Source of the DNA: Deltaproteobacteria bacterium
GTDB lineage: Bacteria > Desulfobacterota > SM23-61
NCBI GenBank assembly: GCA_029857975.1
Contig: JAOUFX010000198.1
Location: 1 to 6,249, forward strand
Direction: 5' to 3'
Length of the DNA stretch: 6,249 bases
Positions 1 through 5,883 of this stretch are shown here, piece after piece. Numbering within the stretch: position 1 is the stretch's first letter; every line of letters starts with the position of its first letter. The position numbers and the translations under genes are program-made. The notes under the pieces were generated by a model that searched no databases, was not told where the DNA came from, and worked only from the letters and a program-made list of their open reading frames with translations.

Positions 1-973
1 CAATATGTTTTTTGGTGGATGTTCCGGTTCAGCGGTCGCCGATGCCTCCAGCATCGGAGGGGTAATGATTCCGGAGATGACTCGGAGAGGGTATGGAAAA
101 GGGTATAGCGCCGCGCTCAATGCCGCTTCCTCCACCATCGGCATCATCATCCCTCCAAGTATTCCCATGATCCTGTATGCCTGGGTGACGGAAGTTTCCA
201 TCCGACAACTCTTCCTGGCCGGATTCATTCCAGGGATCCTCGTAGGCGTAGCCCAGATGGCGGTGGCCGCCTATCTGGGCTACAAGCGAAAACACTATAG
301 GGCCCCCAAACCGAGAAAAGACATCGTACTGGCCCAGTTCAGGAAAAGTCTCCCGGCCCTATTCATTCCCATCCTGGTCTTAGGGGGGATTCTGGCCGGC
401 ATCTACACGACGACGGAAGCCGCCCTGATCGGTGCGCTATACGTCCTGGCCATAGAGAGCCTTATCTATAAGGCATTCAGCGTCAAGGAAATTTTCGGCA
501 TGATGGTCGAAGCAGCCAAAGTGACCGGCGTCGTCATTTTTCTGATTGCTACCTCCATGATGCTGACCTATGTAATCGTCGTCTCCAGAATCCCGGCTAT
601 ACTCCAGGCTGGCTTGGCTCAATTCGTCCCTAACGCAACGATGGCCCTGATTACGATTACCGCCATCCTCCTGGTAACCGGGTGTTTTCTGGATCTGGCT
701 CCCTCTCTGCTCATATTTACGCCCATTTTTTATCCCTTTGCAGTGAAACTGGGGGTCAACCCTGTTCACTTGGGCGTGGTCATGACCATGGTCCTGGGAA
801 TCGGACTTTTCACGCCGCCCGTCGGACAAACGTTGTATATCTCGGCCCTCATCGCCGACACGCCCATCGAGGATGTGAGCCGGGATATCCTGTGGTTCTT
901 ATCGGCCATCGTAGTTGTCGTCTTGCTCGTGATTTTCTTTCCGCCGGTCGCGTTATGGATGGCGTCCTTTTGA
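1..973 (+). CDS. TRAP transporter large permease, DctM family (5'-truncated by window edge)
   Basis: This is the integral-membrane subunit of a tripartite ATP-independent periplasmic transporter, which imports carboxylates and similar solutes using an ion gradient, with a periplasmic binding protein and a small DctQ subunit. The reading frame is open from the first complete codon (nt 2). The ATG at nt 5 is an internal Met, because it sits inside the conserved DctM segment FFGGCSGSAVADASSIGG. About 100 N-terminal residues of a usual 425 or so are missing. Family marks visible: MIPEM near residue 22, the IIIPPSIPMILY membrane segment near 48-58, and the C-terminal GLFTPPVGQTLYIS block near 267-280. 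I count about seven hydrophobic segments, the last ending in FFPPVALW. The substrate cannot be read from this subunit. DctP and DctQ are presumably upstream. The stop is followed by a 203-nt gap, so co-transcription with the next gene is uncertain. Confidence 0.95.
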   Translation, partial: NMFFGGCSGSAVADASSIGGVMIPEMTRRGYGKGYSAALNAASSTIGIIIPPSIPMILYAWVTEVSIRQLFLAGFIPGILVGVAQMAVAAYLGYKRKHYRAPKPRKDIVLAQFRKSLPALFIPILVLGGILAGIYTTTEAALIGALYVLAIESLIYKAFSVKEIFGMMVEAAKVTGVVIFLIATSMMLTYVIVVSRIPAILQAGLAQFVPNATMALITITAILLVTGCFLDLAPSLLIFTPIFYPFAVKLGVNPVHLGVVMTMVLGIGLFTPPVGQTLYISALIADTPIEDVSRDILWFLSAIVVVVLLVIFFPPVALWMASF

Positions 974-1176
974 ATAGAACCCCCACTGGGTTGGGATCCA
1001 AAGACAGGGGAACCTCTTCCGAAAACCCCGGAAAAGTCGGGACTGAAGGAAATTAGCCAAGGCCTAAAATAGTGGATAGTGTCAGGGTGAGTGATTAGTA
1101 AAAAAATGTTTTCACTGACACGAAACCCTCACACGGACACTCTCTGTTTTCGGATTTCGGATTTACTCATTTAACT
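974..1176 (+). other. Intergenic spacer with imperfect inverted repeat and short tandem repeats
   Basis: No gene is seen in these 203 nt. Two weak hairpins follow the permease stop (AACCC/GGGTT at 978-992; CCCG/CGGG at 1027-1041), but neither has a T-run, so no intrinsic terminator is supported. An inverted repeat lies at 1079-1134 and a tandem CGGATTT pair at 1151-1164. Confidence 0.6.
1079..1134. repeat. Imperfect inverted repeat (GTGTCAGGGT / ACCCTCACAC)
   Basis: The outer arms 1079-1088 and 1125-1134 are complementary except at one position. The inner arms AGTGA (1090-1094) and TCACT (1112-1116) also pair. The alternative perfect pairing GTGTCA (1079-1084) with TGACAC (1116-1121) exists too. 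The CACTGACAC core (1113-1121) recurs exactly at 2399-2407, which suggests an interspersed intergenic repeat family rather than a gene-specific operator. Confidence 0.5.
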
Positions 1177-1494
1177 ATGCATGTAAGAGTTGAACTGTGG
1201 ATGTGGCTGGGCGATGAGCTGGGGAGTGATTTCCAGCCACTTTCCGAAATGCGGTCTGGCAAAGAAATGGATGTGGAAGAAGGGCTGACGGTCATCCAGC
1301 TCTTCGACCGTTTGGCCGCTCAACATCCTTTCATTGCCGAAAAGGTCTTCGACCGGAAAAGCCAGAAATTTTTTCCCAATCTCAGCGTGATCGTAACGGA
1401 GGATGGCAAAGTCGTCAGTCCCTTCATCCTTGAAGTAAGTGTGATTAAGGAAGGATATAAAATAACCGTTTTACCCTTCTATGCCGGGGGTTGA
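1177..1494 (+). CDS. MoaD/ThiS-family sulfur-carrier-like protein (ubiquitin-like fold)
   Basis: This 105-residue protein begins MHVRVELWMWLGDELG, like the first strand and helix of MoaD, and ends in VLPFYAGG. The C-terminal Gly104-Gly105 is the feature that E1-like enzymes (MoeB/ThiF) adenylate and thiocarboxylate, making the protein a sulfur donor for molybdopterin or for other sulfur-transfer steps. It is some 15-25 residues longer than ordinary MoaD. The extra length seems to lie around residues 17-35 and 58-70. The start is set by the family pattern: the frame is closed by a TAA at 1099-1101, and no ATG, GTG or TTG lies between that stop and 1177. No Shine-Dalgarno sequence precedes the ATG. 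No MoaE or E1 partner is in the window. MoaD-like genes often sit beside tungsten or molybdenum oxidoreductase genes, so a link to a pterin enzyme outside the window is possible but inferred. Confidence 0.85.
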   Translation: MHVRVELWMWLGDELGSDFQPLSEMRSGKEMDVEEGLTVIQLFDRLAAQHPFIAEKVFDRKSQKFFPNLSVIVTEDGKVVSPFILEVSVIKEGYKITVLPFYAGG

Positions 1495-1636: not shown

Positions 1637-2371
1637 ATGAGGATTGATCAGGAAAAATGTAAAGGATGTCGGCTTTGCGCGGATTACTGTCCCGTGGGAG
1701 CGATCCAATATTTCCAGGACGAGAAAAACCCCAAAAAGAAAAAAGCCCGCATCGATGAAGAAGAGTGTGTAGAATGCGGCGTATGTTTTCGAGCCGAGGT
1801 CTGCAAGCCCCAAGCCATTTACCGCCAGGAAATAGGGTGGCCCCAGAGTGTACGTCTGGCCTTCAGTGATCCCATGGTCGAACACAAACAAACCGGCGTT
1901 CCCGGAAGAGGAACCGAAGAGATGAAGACCAACGAGGTGACCGGACGGTTCAGGAGGGGTTCTTACGGGATGGCCGTCGAACTCGGCCGACCGGGTGTGG
2001 CCGCCAGGTTGAAAGACCTGGAGAAGATCGCTATCGCTTTAGCCAAAATAGGCGTTGAATTTGAACCCAAAAACCCGGTGACATTTTTGTTCGAGGATGT
2101 AAAAACCGGAAAGCTCAAACCCGAAGTGCGGAAGGAGAAAGTCCTTTCCGCGATTATCGAGTTTGTGGTCAAACCCGATCAACTGCGTCCTGTCTTCCAG
2201 TCTTTAAAGGATATTTCTGGGAAGATAGAAAGCGTCTTTTCTCTGGACCTGATCAGCTTCCCCGAGGAAGCGGAGAAAAATCCGGCTTTAAAGGTGGTAA
2301 AGGAGATGGGGTTCCCGGTATATCCCAACGGGAAAGTTAATTTGGGGTTGGGAAAAGTTTTGAACAAATGA
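1637..2371 (+). CDS. Ferredoxin-type 4Fe-4S protein with conserved C-terminal domain, copy 1 (Fd1)
   Basis: This 244-residue, probably cytosolic protein has no signal peptide or membrane segment. Residues 1-60 carry two iron-sulfur motifs: C8-x2-C11-x2-C14-x3-C18-P, typical of bacterial ferredoxins, and C44-x2-C47-x2-C50-x5-C56, whose last spacing is two residues longer than usual. The rest is not ferredoxin. It holds GRGTEEMKTN (90-99), ELGRPG (115-120), FEPKNPVTFL (142-151), and a segment near 168-207 (LSAIIE ... FSLDLIS) whose strand-helix-strand look suggests an ACT- or ferredoxin-like fold; that is inference. All these blocks are kept in the second copy at 4527-5264. The ATG is preceded by GAGGAG (1625-1630) at 6 nt. 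The likely role is electron transfer, perhaps with ligand sensing or protein docking by the C-terminal part. The partner is unknown; the gene for CxC1 follows directly. I do not recognise a named family for the full-length protein. Confidence 0.9.
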   Translation: MRIDQEKCKGCRLCADYCPVGAIQYFQDEKNPKKKKARIDEEECVECGVCFRAEVCKPQAIYRQEIGWPQSVRLAFSDPMVEHKQTGVPGRGTEEMKTNEVTGRFRRGSYGMAVELGRPGVAARLKDLEKIAIALAKIGVEFEPKNPVTFLFEDVKTGKLKPEVRKEKVLSAIIEFVVKPDQLRPVFQSLKDISGKIESVFSLDLISFPEEAEKNPALKVVKEMGFPVYPNGKVNLGLGKVLNK

Positions 2372-2387
2372 TTTTGACTTTATTATT

Positions 2388-2432
2388 ACTGGCACTGGCA
2401 CTGACACTTTATTTTTCTTTAGGCACTTAAAG
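2388..2432. repeat. Tandem hexamers plus CTTTA/TAAAG inverted repeat between Fd1 and CxC1 genes
   Basis: Three consecutive hexamers, ACTGGC, ACTGGC and ACTGAC, occupy 2388-2405. They are followed by CTTTA-N6-TAAAG (2417-2432), whose right arm touches the Shine-Dalgarno of the next gene. The equivalent junction in the second module is only 4 nt long, so this spacer looks like an inserted repeat that separated two formerly close genes. Confidence 0.55.
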
Positions 2433-2442
2433 GAGACTTTAT

Positions 2443-3060
2443 ATGACCCATACCTTACATCGCACTGGAGATTTGGAGAGTATCAGGGAAGATTTTCCCA
2501 TGCTGACCCATGTGGCCCGGGGGTTTAACGATAAAGATGCCGGCCCCCGGTTGAAACAGATTGCCCAGACCATGACCAAATATACGGACCTGCACTTCGG
2601 CGACTGTAAAGTCGGGAATAAGTACACCATGGACTCCGGGGAGATTATGGAGAAGCTCACCGTGGGATGCCAGGTGGTGTTCAAAGATAAAGAAAGCTTG
2701 ATCGCCTGTATGAAGGAGTTGAAGAAAAAAGACCAAGGGATTTCCATCGTGGTCTCCGGGTTATTCGATGAAGTCTTCGACTGCTGCCACCAGGCAGGAC
2801 TCAAGCCTCCCTTAATCGAGTTTGCTCTTGGGGTTCACGGGAATACCAAGAAGCTCTGGCCACCCGAGATTCTGGATTTCGTGACCATGTGCGGCCATGG
2901 GCTGGTCTCCGGCCGCCTGGTAAAGAAGATGGTTCAGGATATCAAGAAAAAGAAGATCACCGTGGAAAAAGCCGCTATCGAGCTGGCTAAACCCTGCCTC
3001 TGCGGAATTTTCAATCCTTACCGAGCTGCCAAACTTCTGCGGAAGATGGTGGAGAAATAA
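2443..3060 (+). CDS. Uncharacterised Cys/His-conserved protein, copy 1 (CxC1)
   Basis: I do not recognise this 205-residue family. It has no signal peptide or membrane helix and is Lys-rich, so it is probably cytosolic. Comparison with its paralogue at 5269-5883 shows what is kept: MTHTLHR at the N-terminus, VFKDKE (79-84), SGL-x-DEV (105-111), adjacent Cys114-Cys115, GVHGNTKKL with His132 (130-138), MCGH with Cys150 and His152, and C185-x-C187-G-x-FNPYRAAKLL near the C-terminus. Five Cys and two His that survive while many other residues change suggest a metal or iron-sulfur site. Other Cys (55, 76, 89) are not conserved. The CC-x34-C-x34-CxC spacing loosely recalls the CCG domain of HdrB-type proteins, but the CxxC of that motif is absent, so homology is not claimed. 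AAGGAG (2430-2435) sits 7 nt before the ATG. The pairing with Fd1, repeated downstream, implies a shared complex. Confidence 0.88.
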   Translation: MTHTLHRTGDLESIREDFPMLTHVARGFNDKDAGPRLKQIAQTMTKYTDLHFGDCKVGNKYTMDSGEIMEKLTVGCQVVFKDKESLIACMKELKKKDQGISIVVSGLFDEVFDCCHQAGLKPPLIEFALGVHGNTKKLWPPEILDFVTMCGHGLVSGRLVKKMVQDIKKKKITVEKAAIELAKPCLCGIFNPYRAAKLLRKMVEK

Positions 3061-3179
3061 TGTCGCGGCCCATAAGTTCATTGCCAAAAGCGGCAAGGAA
3101 CTCAGCGGTTCTCTGCCTGGCTCTCTGGCAGCGATTGGAATTGATCAACTTATTTCTGATTTCTGAAAAGCGAGAATAG
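3060..3179 (+). CDS. Possible 39-codon small ORF filling the CxC1-pdxA gap
   Basis: An ATG overlaps the CxC1 stop (TAATG, 3058-3062), with GGAG at 3051-3054 five nt before it. The frame runs 39 codons to TAG at 3177-3179, 15 nt before the next gene. The product would begin MSRPISSLPKAARNSA and include a short hydrophobic stretch (VLCLALW, then LINLFLI). No family is recognised. The second module lacks a counterpart, and its 3' end is made of the CTGATTTCTGAA repeat, so it may be a chance ORF. Confidence 0.2.
   Translation: MSRPISSLPKAARNSAVLCLALWQRLELINLFLISEKRE
3153..3167. repeat. Tandem TTTCTGA pair upstream of pdxA-like gene
   Basis: TTTCTGA occurs twice in a row (3153-3166). The 12-mer CTGATTTCTGAA (3156-3167) is an exact copy of the one at 1578-1589, and a related GGATTTCGGA lies at 1152-1161. 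It sits 28 nt before the TTG start at 3195. Confidence 0.5.
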
Positions 3180-3194
3180 GAGGGAAAAATCATT

Positions 3195-4208
3195 TTGAAT
3201 ACGAATCAAAAGCATCGACCCAAAGTAGCCATAGTCATGGGAGACGCCACCGGCATCGGGCCAGAGCTAGTAGCTAAATCTTTGGCTACGGAAGAGACCC
3301 GCCGCCTCTGCCGCCCGGCGGTGATCGGCGACGCCCGAGTAATGGCCGAGGCGATCCAATTGACCAAAGCTTCTCTGAAGATCGTTCGCCGGAAAAATTG
3401 GGCAGAGGTTTCGGGTGACGCCGGCCTGATGGAGATGTTTGACCTGGCCAACCTTGACCCTAAAGAATACAAGAGGGGAGAAGTCAGTGCCCGGGCAGGG
3501 CAAGCCTGCCTTCAATACCTGGAATTGGGTATGGGACAACTGATGGCTGGACAGGCGGCGGCAATGGTTTTTGCCCCGCTGAACAAGCTGGCTATGCGCC
3601 TGGCTGGCTCCCCCTTCAAAGGTGAACTAAACCATTTCATAAGCTTGACCAAGGCCGAACTGGCCGGAGAGATCAATTTTTTGGAGCCCTTATGGACCTC
3701 TCGGGTCACCTCCCATGTTGGTTTTCGGGAAATCTGCGACCAGCTAACTCCCGAGGGCATCTTGCGGGCAATTACTCTTCTGCATAAAACCATGTGCCGG
3801 GCCGGACTGGAAAAGCCACGGATTGGGGTTGCGGCCCTGAACCCTCATGGGGGGGAGAAAGGCCTTTTTGGCCCGGAAGAAGAGACAATCATCCAGCCTG
3901 CTGTGGAAAAAGCAAGGCAGCAGGGGATGGAGGTTCGAGGCCCGTTTCCCGCGGATACCATCTTTGTACGGGCCCGCAAAGGTGAGTTCGAAGGCATCGT
4001 GACCATGTACCACGATCAAGGACAGATCGCTACCAAGCTTTTGGGCTTCGATCGGGGAGTGACGGTCTCCGGGGGGCTTCCGGTGGTCATTGCTACCCCC
4101 GCTCACGGGACGGCTCATGATATTGCCGGTAAAGGGATCGCCGATGTGGGAGCTTTTCAGGCGGCGTTGCGAATTGCAGTGCGCATGGGTCAAGGATTAA
4201 AGAATTGA
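3195..4208 (+). CDS. PdxA-family NAD-dependent dehydrogenase (PdxA2-like, divergent)
   Basis: The 337-residue length and order of motifs fit the PdxA family, metal- and NAD(P)-dependent enzymes that oxidise and decarboxylate hydroxy-acid substrates such as 4-phospho-hydroxy-threonine. Visible: VAIVMGDATGIGPE (11-24, classically GDPAGIGPE), APLNK (127-131), NPHGGEKGLFG (216-226), PFPADTIF (250-257), MYHDQG (271-276) and HGTAHDIAGKGIAD (304-317). The three metal-binding histidines appear present as His147, His174 and His273. The usual GHTE around the first is replaced by LNHFIS, and in the pocket GVN reads GVT (288-290) and IRTS reads IATP (299-302). These changes argue against simple vitamin B6 synthesis and for a catabolic paralogue, as known for tetronate or terephthalate pathways; the substrate is unknown. 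The start is TTG: a stop lies in frame at 3177-3179, no ATG or GTG lies between, and AGGAGGG (3178-3184) sits 10 nt upstream. Confidence 0.9.
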   Translation: MNTNQKHRPKVAIVMGDATGIGPELVAKSLATEETRRLCRPAVIGDARVMAEAIQLTKASLKIVRRKNWAEVSGDAGLMEMFDLANLDPKEYKRGEVSARAGQACLQYLELGMGQLMAGQAAAMVFAPLNKLAMRLAGSPFKGELNHFISLTKAELAGEINFLEPLWTSRVTSHVGFREICDQLTPEGILRAITLLHKTMCRAGLEKPRIGVAALNPHGGEKGLFGPEEETIIQPAVEKARQQGMEVRGPFPADTIFVRARKGEFEGIVTMYHDQGQIATKLLGFDRGVTVSGGLPVVIATPAHGTAHDIAGKGIADVGAFQAALRIAVRMGQGLKN

Positions 4209-4217
4209 CCGCGGTCA
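4206..4217. repeat. Perfect 12-bp palindrome at the pdxA-like stop codon
   Basis: TGACCGCGGTCA reads the same on both strands and begins with the TGA stop of the PdxA-like gene. It may be a dimeric regulator site or chance. No T-run follows, so it is not an intrinsic terminator. Confidence 0.35.
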
Positions 4218-4292
4218 TGGATAAAAAATAACACCTTTCCCCTTAATAGTTTTTCTGCTCATAAATTTTAAATTTAATAGGATGCAGATTTG

Positions 4293-4321
4293 CCCTGTTA
4301 GATAGTCAACATTTAACAGGG
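4293..4321. repeat. Strong inverted repeat CCCTGTTA / TAACAGGG
   Basis: Perfect 8-bp arms (4293-4300 and 4314-4321) enclose 13 nt. In RNA a G-U and two A-U pairs lengthen the stem to 11 bp with a 7-nt loop (AGTCAAC). No T-run follows on either strand. It lies about 80 bp upstream of the -35 element of the promoter at 4403, a distance suited to an activator or looping repressor site. It could instead be a 3' processing or stability hairpin of the upstream transcript. Confidence 0.6.
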
Positions 4322-4389
4322 TGAATCCGTGTCCAAAAAGGAAATTCTTATACAACCAAGGTAAAAAATAAAAAATAAAGGTGGGAGAG

Positions 4390-4437
4390 AAAAAATTCTT
4401 CATTGACAGCCTGGATGAGTCAAAGGATAATGAGCAG
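4390..4437 (+). promoter_or_regulatory. Near-consensus sigma-70 promoter for Fd2-CxC2
   Basis: TTGACA (4403-4408, six of six consensus) is followed after exactly 17 nt by GATAAT (4426-4431, five of six). AAAAAATT at 4390-4397 sits where an UP-element subsite is expected. The start would be near A4436 or G4437, giving a 5' UTR of about 90 nt. TTGAC (4403-4407) and GTCAA (4419-4423) form an inverted repeat with an 11-nt spacer, which could be an operator overlapping the promoter. Confidence 0.7.
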
Positions 4438-4444
4438 CTATTTT

Positions 4445-4481
4445 CAAGCCCCCGGCGTCAAAGCTCGAAGAGGGGGGCTTG
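4445..4481 (+). promoter_or_regulatory. Leader stem-loop in the 5' UTR of Fd2
   Basis: CAAGCCCCC (4445-4453) pairs perfectly with GGGGGCTTG (4473-4481) around a 19-nt loop. It begins about 8 nt after the predicted transcription start and ends 32 nt before the ribosome binding site. No T-run follows, so it is more likely an RNA-stabilising or regulatory 5' structure than an attenuator. Confidence 0.5.
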
Positions 4482-4526
4482 CCCAAAAAGACTTCCATTG
4501 AATTTTCAAAAAGAAGGAGGAGATAG

Positions 4527-5264
4527 ATGCAAATTAATAAAGGGAAGTGTACCGGATGCGAAGCCTGTCATCCGTACTGCACAGTAGGAGTCATTCATTC
4601 GGTGAAGAAAGATGGCGGCGAAGACCTTGTCAGTGTCATCGATCAGGATGAATGCGTAGAATGTGGCGTGTGCCATCGGGCCAATGTCTGCCCGACCGAC
4701 GCGATCTATCCGGTTGAGCTCAAATGGCCTCGATCCCTGCGGGGCGTTTTCAGCGATCCTCTGACGGTGCACAAAGACACCGGGATTGCCGGCCGCGGAA
4801 CCGAGGAAATGAAGACCAATGATGTTACCGGACGGATCCGCAGGGGACATGCCGGGGTGGCTATCGAATTGGGAAGGCCGGGCATAGGAACTCGCTTCCG
4901 GGATGTGGATATCATGGCCCAGGCGGTGGCCAAGGTCGGGGTCGTATTCGAACCCAAAAATCCCGTGACTTTCTTGATGGTAGATAAGAGCACGGGAAAG
5001 ATCCGCGAGGATGTTCTCAACGAAAAGGCCCTTTCGGCGATTATCGAATGCGGCATAGAGATGGATAAATTGGAGAATTTGCTCTCGGTCATCAAAGCCA
5101 CGGCCCCCAAGCTAAATACGCTCTTTTCTTTAGACCTTATCTGTAAAGTAGGGGAGAAAGGGGAAATGGAGACTCTGCCCATCGCCCAGAAAGTGGGCTT
5201 TACGCCCCGTCCCAACACCAAGAACAATATCGGTTTTGGCCGCCCTTTAGCGAAGGAGGAATAG
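4527..5264 (+). CDS. Ferredoxin-type 4Fe-4S protein with conserved C-terminal domain, copy 2 (Fd2)
   Basis: This 245-residue paralogue of the protein at 1637-2371 is almost the same length and has no signal peptide. Iron-sulfur ligands are C8, C11, C14, C18 in the first motif (Thr, not Pro, follows C18) and C43, C46, C49, C55 in the second, with the same unusual x5 spacing before the last Cys. GRGTEEMKTNDVTGR, ELGRPG, FEPKNPVTFL, LSAIIE and LFSLDLI are all kept, while surrounding residues differ widely, so the duplication is old. Differences from copy 1 cluster in the linker between the two Fe-S motifs and in the last 40 residues, including the ACT-like segment; these may set the partner or ligand. 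AAGGAGGAG (4514-4522) gives a strong ribosome binding site. The gene has its own promoter at 4403 and ends 4 nt before CxC2, so the pair is an operon. Confidence 0.9.
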   Translation: MQINKGKCTGCEACHPYCTVGVIHSVKKDGGEDLVSVIDQDECVECGVCHRANVCPTDAIYPVELKWPRSLRGVFSDPLTVHKDTGIAGRGTEEMKTNDVTGRIRRGHAGVAIELGRPGIGTRFRDVDIMAQAVAKVGVVFEPKNPVTFLMVDKSTGKIREDVLNEKALSAIIECGIEMDKLENLLSVIKATAPKLNTLFSLDLICKVGEKGEMETLPIAQKVGFTPRPNTKNNIGFGRPLAKEE

Positions 5265-5268
5265 GTAA

Positions 5269-5883
5269 ATGACTCACACTTTACATCGAAGAGGGGATAA
5301 CCAAAGTTTGCAGGAAGATTATGTTGTTCTGATCATGCCGGCCCAGGGCGTCAACGTCCCGGGTTCCGATGAAAAGTTGAAGAAGCTGTGGGAGATTTTT
5401 TCCCGTTACAATGTAGTAAATTTCGGCAATGGCAACCATAACAAATTCACCCTGAGTCTGAAAGACCTGAAAAAGAAGAAATCCATGATCGGCCACGCCG
5501 TCTTCAAAGATAAGGAGACGCTGACCCAGTTCGTCAAAGAGTTGAAAGAAGCCGACCTGGGCCTCTCCACGGTCCTTTCCGGTCTGTACGATGAAGTAAA
5601 GGATTGCTGCGGCAGCCTGGGAATCAAGCTGCACACGGTGGAACATTCCCTGGGGGTTCATGGCAACACCAAAAAGCTCCCCTCGGAGAATGTATTGGAG
5701 ATCCACACCATGTGTGGCCACGCCCTGATCGCCCCCAAATTGATTGAAGCCATGGTCGATTCAATCAAGAAAGGTAAACAGACTCCAGAGGCTGCGGCTG
5801 AAGAACTGGCGCGCCAGTGCTCCTGCGGGGTCTTCAACCCTTATCGGGCCGCCAAACTGCTTAAGAAAATGGCTTCCTTGTAG
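5269..5883 (+). CDS. Uncharacterised Cys/His-conserved protein, copy 2 (CxC2)
   Basis: This 204-residue paralogue of the protein at 2443-3060 belongs to no family I can name. Conserved features line up: MTHTLHR, VFKDKE (78-83), LSGLYDEV (103-110), Cys113-Cys114, LGVHGNTKKL with His131, TMCGH with Cys149 and His151, and C184-x-C186-G-x-FNPYRAAKLL. These are the only cysteines in the protein, so all five are conserved, which strengthens the case for a metal or Fe-S site. The C-terminal half is clearly closer to copy 1 than the N-terminal 75 residues, where insertions and substitutions accumulate. The ribosome binding site AAGGAGG (5253-5259) lies inside the last codons of Fd2, with a 4-nt gap between the genes, implying translational coupling and roughly equal amounts of the two proteins. 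I infer a complex or a cluster-transfer pair with Fd2; this is not shown by sequence alone. Confidence 0.88.
   Translation: MTHTLHRRGDNQSLQEDYVVLIMPAQGVNVPGSDEKLKKLWEIFSRYNVVNFGNGNHNKFTLSLKDLKKKKSMIGHAVFKDKETLTQFVKELKEADLGLSTVLSGLYDEVKDCCGSLGIKLHTVEHSLGVHGNTKKLPSENVLEIHTMCGHALIAPKLIEAMVDSIKKGKQTPEAAAEELARQCSCGVFNPYRAAKLLKKMASL

Follow-up and report, generated by a model that had tools for sequence, protein, structure and literature searches.

What is the function of a pair of genes that occurs twice, in the same order, on either side of a PdxA-like gene in a contig (JAOUFX010000198.1) from a member of the Desulfobacterota? We refer to this whole stretch of DNA, at its full length of 6,249 nucleotides, as the window. 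The first gene of each pair encodes Fd (a ferredoxin domain followed by a second domain) and the second encodes CxC (a protein with conserved cysteines and histidines). A preliminary description of the window had noticed the ordered pair on both sides of the PdxA-like gene, and it gave the coordinates and the lengths of the proteins (244 and 245 amino acids for Fd; 205 and 204 for CxC) correctly. We found that homologues of Fd and CxC are almost always adjacent and that their trees agree, which supports the view that the pair is a real module. We also propose, tentatively and at a little under an even chance, that Fd and CxC are the two subunits of an iron-sulfur oxidoreductase that would act on imported organic acids.

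The window contains seven genes:

2..973, + strand: DctM, the large permease of a TRAP transporter (PF06808, E = 2.3e-82; above the cut-off for TIGR00786); its 5' end lies beyond the window
1177..1494, + strand: small MoaD/ThiS-like protein, WorX-like by position (PF02597, E = 2.7e-4, slightly below the cut-off); shares 71% identity with the protein that separates AOR from Fd in locus L109
1637..2371, + strand: Fd1 (pair 1, subfamily 15), 244 amino acids, with a 2[4Fe-4S] ferredoxin domain and a C-terminal domain
2443..3060, + strand: CxC1 (pair 1, subfamily 15), 205 amino acids, a Cys/His protein outside the families of Pfam and NCBIfam
3195..4208, + strand: PdxA-like protein, putatively a metal-dependent beta-hydroxyacid dehydrogenase, 337 amino acids, TTG start (PF04166, E = 1.4e-89)
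4527..5264, + strand: Fd2 (pair 2, subfamily 16), 245 amino acids (AlphaFold2 pLDDT of 91.6)
5269..5883, + strand: CxC2 (pair 2, subfamily 16), 204 amino acids, with C149, H151, C184, and C186 (AlphaFold2 pLDDT of 93.6)

Fd1 and Fd2 are 49% identical (244 amino acids aligned, E = 6e-85), and CxC1 and CxC2 are 48% identical (203 amino acids aligned, E = 2e-65), so a chance resemblance is excluded. Scans of the window for tRNAs and for Rfam families gave no match.

Pairing, subfamilies, and the mosaic window

Homologue searches returned 1148 protein clusters for CxC and 3776 for Fd, although the latter might include other ferredoxins. We fetched loci from among the best matches listed in these searches and called their genes with a simple script that takes the longest open reading frames. 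(Some CxC matches contain an in-frame TAG or TAA, which raised the idea of pyrrolysine in CxC; the frames terminate at these codons and have a normal length, so we read the codons as the usual stop.) In the fetched loci, Fd lies directly upstream of 112 of the 118 distinct CxC genes, on the same strand and with a gap of -4 to 234 bases (29 bases or less in 95 of the 112). Five of the other six CxC genes are cut at the edge of the locus, and the sixth, in L131, has Fd directly downstream. Conversely, 110 of the 115 distinct Fd genes have CxC downstream. Three of the remainder are cut off at the end, another has only 479 bases after it, and the last is the Fd of L131.

The pairing also holds across genomes. 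In a sample of 395 genomes from one phylum, 28 contain CxC and 27 contain Fd (E ≤ 1e-40); in a sample of 199 genomes from another phylum, the corresponding numbers are 15 and 14. (G001, G002, and G008 were known to be carriers before the samples that contain them.) Every genome with Fd at this threshold also has CxC, and the two genomes with CxC alone (G039 and G476) have a weaker, partial Fd immediately beside it. A genome can have as many as nine CxC matches. A search for CxC in plasmids gave no match.

We built trees from 108 of the 112 pairs, leaving out the partial ones. Path lengths in the two trees were correlated (r = 0.73, while the maximum across 1000 shuffles was 0.13), and for 95 of the 108 pairs, the closest row by the Fd tree was also one of the three closest by the CxC tree. 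The adjacency of the homologues and the agreement of their trees both bear out the suggestion, in the preliminary description, that the pair is a unit.

Clustering of the 108 pairs gave 24 subfamilies. Pair 1 of the window belongs to subfamily 15 (with L109, L147, L157, L159, and L104), and pair 2 belongs to subfamily 16 (with L001, L145, L002, L112, and seven more). Both subfamilies have support of 94 to 99 in both trees by the approximate likelihood-ratio test (SH-aLRT; 53-row subset), but this support, which covers 53 of the 108 rows, is not an independent test, as the subfamilies had been defined on these very trees. Omega was 0.04-0.17 across five comparisons with near relatives, which implies that both copies are under purifying selection. 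Thus, the two copies do belong to old lineages that are maintained by selection, as first supposed. It is possible that an old duplication lies behind subfamilies 15 and 16: the CxC tree unites them (support of 92, not starred), and although they do not group in the best Fd tree, an approximately unbiased test does not reject the grouping (p-AU = 0.38). What does not survive is the idea of one private duplication that gave rise to two specialised copies, given the 24 subfamilies, the multiple CxC matches per genome, and the origins of the window itself.

The window is a mosaic, in which pair 1 and PdxA, arranged as in L109, are joined to PdxA and pair 2, arranged as in L001. The identity to L109 is 88% for Fd1, 88% for CxC1, 86% for PdxA, and 71% for the MoaD-like protein, but just 38% for DctM; the identity to L001 is 96% for PdxA, 97% for Fd2, and 91% for CxC2. 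After its PdxA, L109 has a pair from another subfamily (13). More broadly, we considered 69 wide loci (60 regions picked around CxC matches, L001-L008, and the window), which contain 16 combinations of neighbouring pairs that are at most 6 kb apart. We were able to place 14 of these in the trees, and each of them combines different subfamilies, which suggests that neighbouring pairs are mostly assembled from separate subfamilies and are not recent tandem copies. Their CxC distances range from 1.4 to 2.8, versus a background median of 2.1. These combinations are partly non-independent (L002 is similar to L112, and L004 is similar to L006). Also, L126 (one operon) and L007 count against the rule, as each has two pairs of one subfamily that are slightly more than 6 kb apart.

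L109 also has an AOR gene between DctM and the MoaD-like gene. The corresponding part of the window (973-1177) has none, which leaves the MoaD-like gene without its usual partner. We found no gene for the large subunit of AOR in the window's 6,249 bases; the record apparently ends there, and AOR may lie elsewhere.

Conserved residues and genomic context

The N-terminal part of Fd matches PF00037 in two stretches in both copies, which identifies a 2[4Fe-4S] ferredoxin domain. Seven of the cluster cysteines are present in every filled row of the alignment (91 to 107 rows are filled), and C11 is present in 90 of 91. In the second cluster motif, the spacing ahead of the last cysteine exceeds that of the usual motif. 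(In subfamily 13, the Fd proteins of L109:8640-9889, L146:10684-11916, L149, and L008 have an insert of about 25 residues within this motif.) Outside the cluster motifs, nine residues of Fd are present in all 108 rows, and the second domain has R90, K96, N98, R117, E174, and K232 as invariants.

In CxC, C149, H151, C184, and C186 are present in all 108 aligned rows, and H122 is present in 102. The two copies in the window had been described as keeping all of the putative metal ligands. This is correct for the eight cysteines of Fd and for the four invariant residues of CxC; H122 is replaced by proline in copy 1. The N-terminus of CxC, MTHxLHRxG, is almost invariant as well (R7 in 108 of 108 rows and H6 in 105). 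This is an odd beginning for a protein, and it may take part in the metal site or the active site.

Neither CxC1 nor CxC2 matches a Pfam or NCBIfam family above the cut-off. A scan of 67 family members gave no more than weak, scattered matches, the best at E = 0.0004 (one member); the most widely shared was to a kinase model (8 of 67 members, best E = 0.0017). In the AlphaFold2 model, residues 12-107 or so have a predicted ferredoxin-like fold. Neither Foldseek nor VIA-align identified a clear relative of the C-terminal half, and this is no argument for a new fold. Two other candidates were rejected. A match to XPA in the PDB (E = 0.003) spans about 35 residues, and we took it to be due to chance. 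A link to methanogenesis markers (McrD, or DUF2099, which is methanogenesis marker 8) was dropped: PF09872 matched 1 of the 67 members (E = 0.021) at residues 54-136, outside the CGH/CxCG region, and a search with PF09872 in 16 genomes gave no match at E ≤ 0.01.

To describe the genomic context, we used 92 pairs from the wide loci and counted neighbours within 6 kb. These pairs are near TctA (51 pairs), TctC (47), PadH-like genes (20), GntR/FCD (20), CODH-like genes (16), CooF-like genes (15), AOR (11), zinc ADH (9), PdxA (8), HIBADH (8), and DctM (7). TctA, an organic-acid transporter gene, is within 5 kb of 33 of the 59 pairs with full flanks, where about 2.5 would be expected by our own arithmetic (213 TctA genes in 16 genomes totalling about 61 Mb, which are fewer genomes than lie behind the 59 pairs). 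(One TctA gene that lies beside two pairs, in L096 at G001:C121:29374-30630, contains an in-frame TAG that splits it into two frames.) AOR and a CODH-like gene were never near the same pair (0 of 92, with about 2 expected; not significant). Another 92 operon neighbours were unnamed; we scanned 62 of them together, along with one from L001, and two sets of ten, from these or other neighbours, singly. The joint scan gave 57 Pfam families among 63 proteins and no family in more than three, which is the diversity expected if every operon handles its own acid. Some neighbours are plainly unrelated, such as TatC or a chaperonin. (The names FeADH, UxaA, CoAT3, AT3, FAH, IclR, PucR, ABC, HMGL, and DctP, and those of the smaller TctB clusters, are from our own reading of the sequences.)

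Among pairs with operon context, the subfamilies lean towards particular types of operons. A PadH or CODH-like gene accompanies 6 of 7 pairs in subfamily 4 and 3 of 5 in subfamily 19. The PadH/CODH-like set is found with all four pairs in subfamily 12, three of them with a BhcA-like aminotransferase. Zinc ADH accompanies 6 of 11 pairs in subfamily 20, and a ureohydrolase is found in 2 of the 3 operons of subfamily 10, one among the kin of each phylum sample. That different subfamilies tend to occur with different catabolic genes favours different substrates or steps.

A candidate enzyme and its rivals

We propose that Fd and CxC would be the two subunits of a single catabolic enzyme in anaerobes. 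This enzyme would depend on iron-sulfur clusters and act on a small organic acid after its import, with oxidoreduction as the most likely chemistry. CxC would hold the active metal site, built from C149, H151, C184, and C186 together with the conserved R7, N190, and N-terminal MTHxLHRxG. The two [4Fe-4S] clusters of Fd would carry electrons to or from this site, and R90, K96, N98, R117, E174, and K232 in its second domain may bind the substrate or a charged cofactor. The paralogous pairs would differ in the acids that they serve, and in the window, two such pairs would flank a PdxA-like dehydrogenase. In some operons, electrons would reach NAD via the CooF-like, CODH-like, and PadH-like proteins; elsewhere, there would be other partners.

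We favour this oxidoreductase mainly by exclusion, because the pair stays constant while the rest of the catabolic operon varies, and because the type of operon tends to follow the subfamily. Furthermore, the operons in L094 and L107 (by a 200-base rule) encode solely CooF-like, CODH-like, PadH-like, Fd, and CxC proteins, so that apart from the pair there is only an NAD-linked chain, and its CODH-like member is short of catalytic-site cysteines. This CODH-like cluster has 12 members (L127:6411-7976, L094, L137, L139, L140, and others), of which 11 have 487-573 amino acids and one is a piece of 266. Four N-terminal cysteines are kept in all 12, and the sole other cysteine-rich column has a cysteine in 7 of the 12. 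The cysteine ligands of the C-cluster of Ni-CODH were not found in these 12 members, and the score against TIGR01702 is 97.7 bits, below the cut-off of 478. As the CODH-like protein keeps only these four cysteines throughout, CxC is a candidate for the substrate end. The locus of every CODH-like member also has a PadH-like gene, and 11 of the 12 have a CooF-like gene; these loci were reached through the pairs and give no view of CODH-like sets elsewhere. A 2019 survey already describes Ni-CODH groups with altered C-cluster motifs, although it omitted hits of under 550 amino acids or under 200 bits (PMC6344411).

The PdxA-like protein of the window contains the PdxA domain and scores under all of the listed NCBIfam cut-offs for PdxA (275.4 bits versus 290.35 for TIGR00557). 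Where the structures 4jqp and 6e85 carry GHTE, it has GELN, as does the PdxA of L001. A pattern search for GHTE with H, F, L, or M as the next residue gave no match in the six PdxA-like proteins that lie beside pairs (in the window, L001, L109, L126, L128, and L152). The GHTE motif has a role in handling phosphate, and its absence suggests unphosphorylated substrates; the dehydrogenase of the window probably acts on an unphosphorylated acid.

Several observations weigh against a two-subunit oxidoreductase. Neither the Fd2 model nor the CxC2 model has a Foldseek match in the PDB at E ≤ 0.001. Near 30 of the 92 pairs, there is no TctA, TctC, or DctM within 6 kb (some flanks are cut), and the correspondence between operon type and subfamily is partial. 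Fused proteins give weak support for a complex. Of 120 long proteins listed in a search for fusions, we inspected 12; 11 hold parts of both Fd and CxC, and P0262 holds Fd only. P0241, P0242, and P0245 have apparent frameshifts just ahead of CxC; Fd is truncated in P0243; P0244, P0246, P0251, and P0279 have gaps or missing ends; the order is reversed in P0248; and the middle of P0280 is broken. P0285 is the strongest candidate, and the fused frames mostly resemble frameshifts or chimeras. One Fd relative in this search comes from a culturable anaerobe, Sporolituus thermophilus. Finally, the ferredoxin-like domain of CxC, and to a lesser extent that of Fd, resembles the folds of PII-like, ACT, and McrD proteins, many of which are involved in regulation or assembly.

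This last resemblance suggests that the pair could be an assembly factor or a regulator that senses redox state or a metabolite; its PII-like or ACT-like domains would control a transporter or mature partner metalloenzymes. However, structural matches of the size seen for CxC are common; a regulator would have no single target, as pairs adjoin TTT and TRAP transporters and, by our own reading, ABC transporters; and AOR and CODH-like genes are each near too few of the pairs for the module to be dedicated to one enzyme. We consider a regulator or assembly factor to be unlikely. We give slightly more credence, while still doubting it, to a non-redox iron-sulfur lyase, dehydratase, racemase, or decarboxylase, in which three cysteines of CxC would bind a site-differentiated [4Fe-4S] cluster that Fd keeps reduced. 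The three invariant cysteines and the histidine of CxC and the invariant charged residues of Fd would suit such an enzyme, and several operons already have separate dehydrogenases (HIBADH, PdxA-like, zinc ADH, or AOR). On the other hand, some operons have other dehydratases (MmgE/PrpD in L006 and, by our own reading, a UxaA-like protein in L096), and the PadH-like, CODH-like, and CooF-like genes indicate net electron transfer where they occur. Least probable, in our judgement, is that the pair simply transfers electrons for dehydrogenases nearby (AOR, for example) and has no active site of its own. The ferredoxin motifs of Fd, the MoaD-like gene in the window, and the AOR beside its relative in L109 are what such a carrier would predict, but AOR is near just 11 of the 92 pairs, and there is little reason for a carrier to have this many invariant charged residues in each of the two proteins, or this many subfamilies.

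Novelty and comparison with known systems

Neither the family scans nor the literature that we searched, which mostly did not cover subscription papers or bioRxiv preprints, gave a name or description for the Fd-CxC pair, in keeping with the preliminary description, whose author knew of no named system. We therefore regard the CxC family and the Fd-CxC module as new, while the cluster domain of Fd is ordinary. A broader proposal, which we hold more cautiously and with a substantial minority chance of being right, is that the pair represents an undescribed class of two-subunit iron-sulfur enzymes, with many paralogues per genome that are each tuned to a different imported acid, and with some of them wired to NAD via a relative of CODH that would serve as a conduit without a catalytic cluster. 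Anaerobes of sludge, sediment, and groundwater degrade many organic acids by unknown routes, and the module, which is present in about 7% of the sampled genomes from two phyla, would mark many unassigned operons. If the pair is an enzyme, then the subfamily and the neighbouring genes would make guesses about substrates testable, and CxC would be a new family of metal-site proteins.

Parts of the proposed system resemble known ones. Some pairs lie beside CooF-like, CODH-like, and PadH-like genes, which is reminiscent of Ni-CODH with CooF and a flavin NAD reductase, but the CODH-like neighbour differs in its cysteines, as described above. The PdxA-like protein is in the same family as PdxA2/D-threonate-4-phosphate dehydrogenase and terephthalate dihydrodiol dehydrogenase (with PDB matches to 4jqp, 6e85, and 4aty), and it differs in having GELN at the place of GHTE in 4jqp and 6e85 and in scoring below the curated cut-offs. 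As in tungsten AOR/WOR operons with WorX, a MoaD-like gene precedes Fd in both the window and L109; AOR adjoins it in L109, whereas the window lacks AOR and most pairs are not near one. The predicted ferredoxin-like fold of CxC (at residues 12-107 or so) matches PII-like and ACT regulators (SbtB and CPII) and McrD at background level, and Fd has weak Foldseek matches to them, but we found no link in sequence, and the C-terminal half of CxC, with its MCGH and CxCG motifs, is additional. Lastly, Fd differs from other bacterial 2[4Fe-4S] ferredoxins and ferredoxin domains (reaction-centre PshB-type, HdrA, and clostridial) in having about 180 extra residues with invariants of their own.

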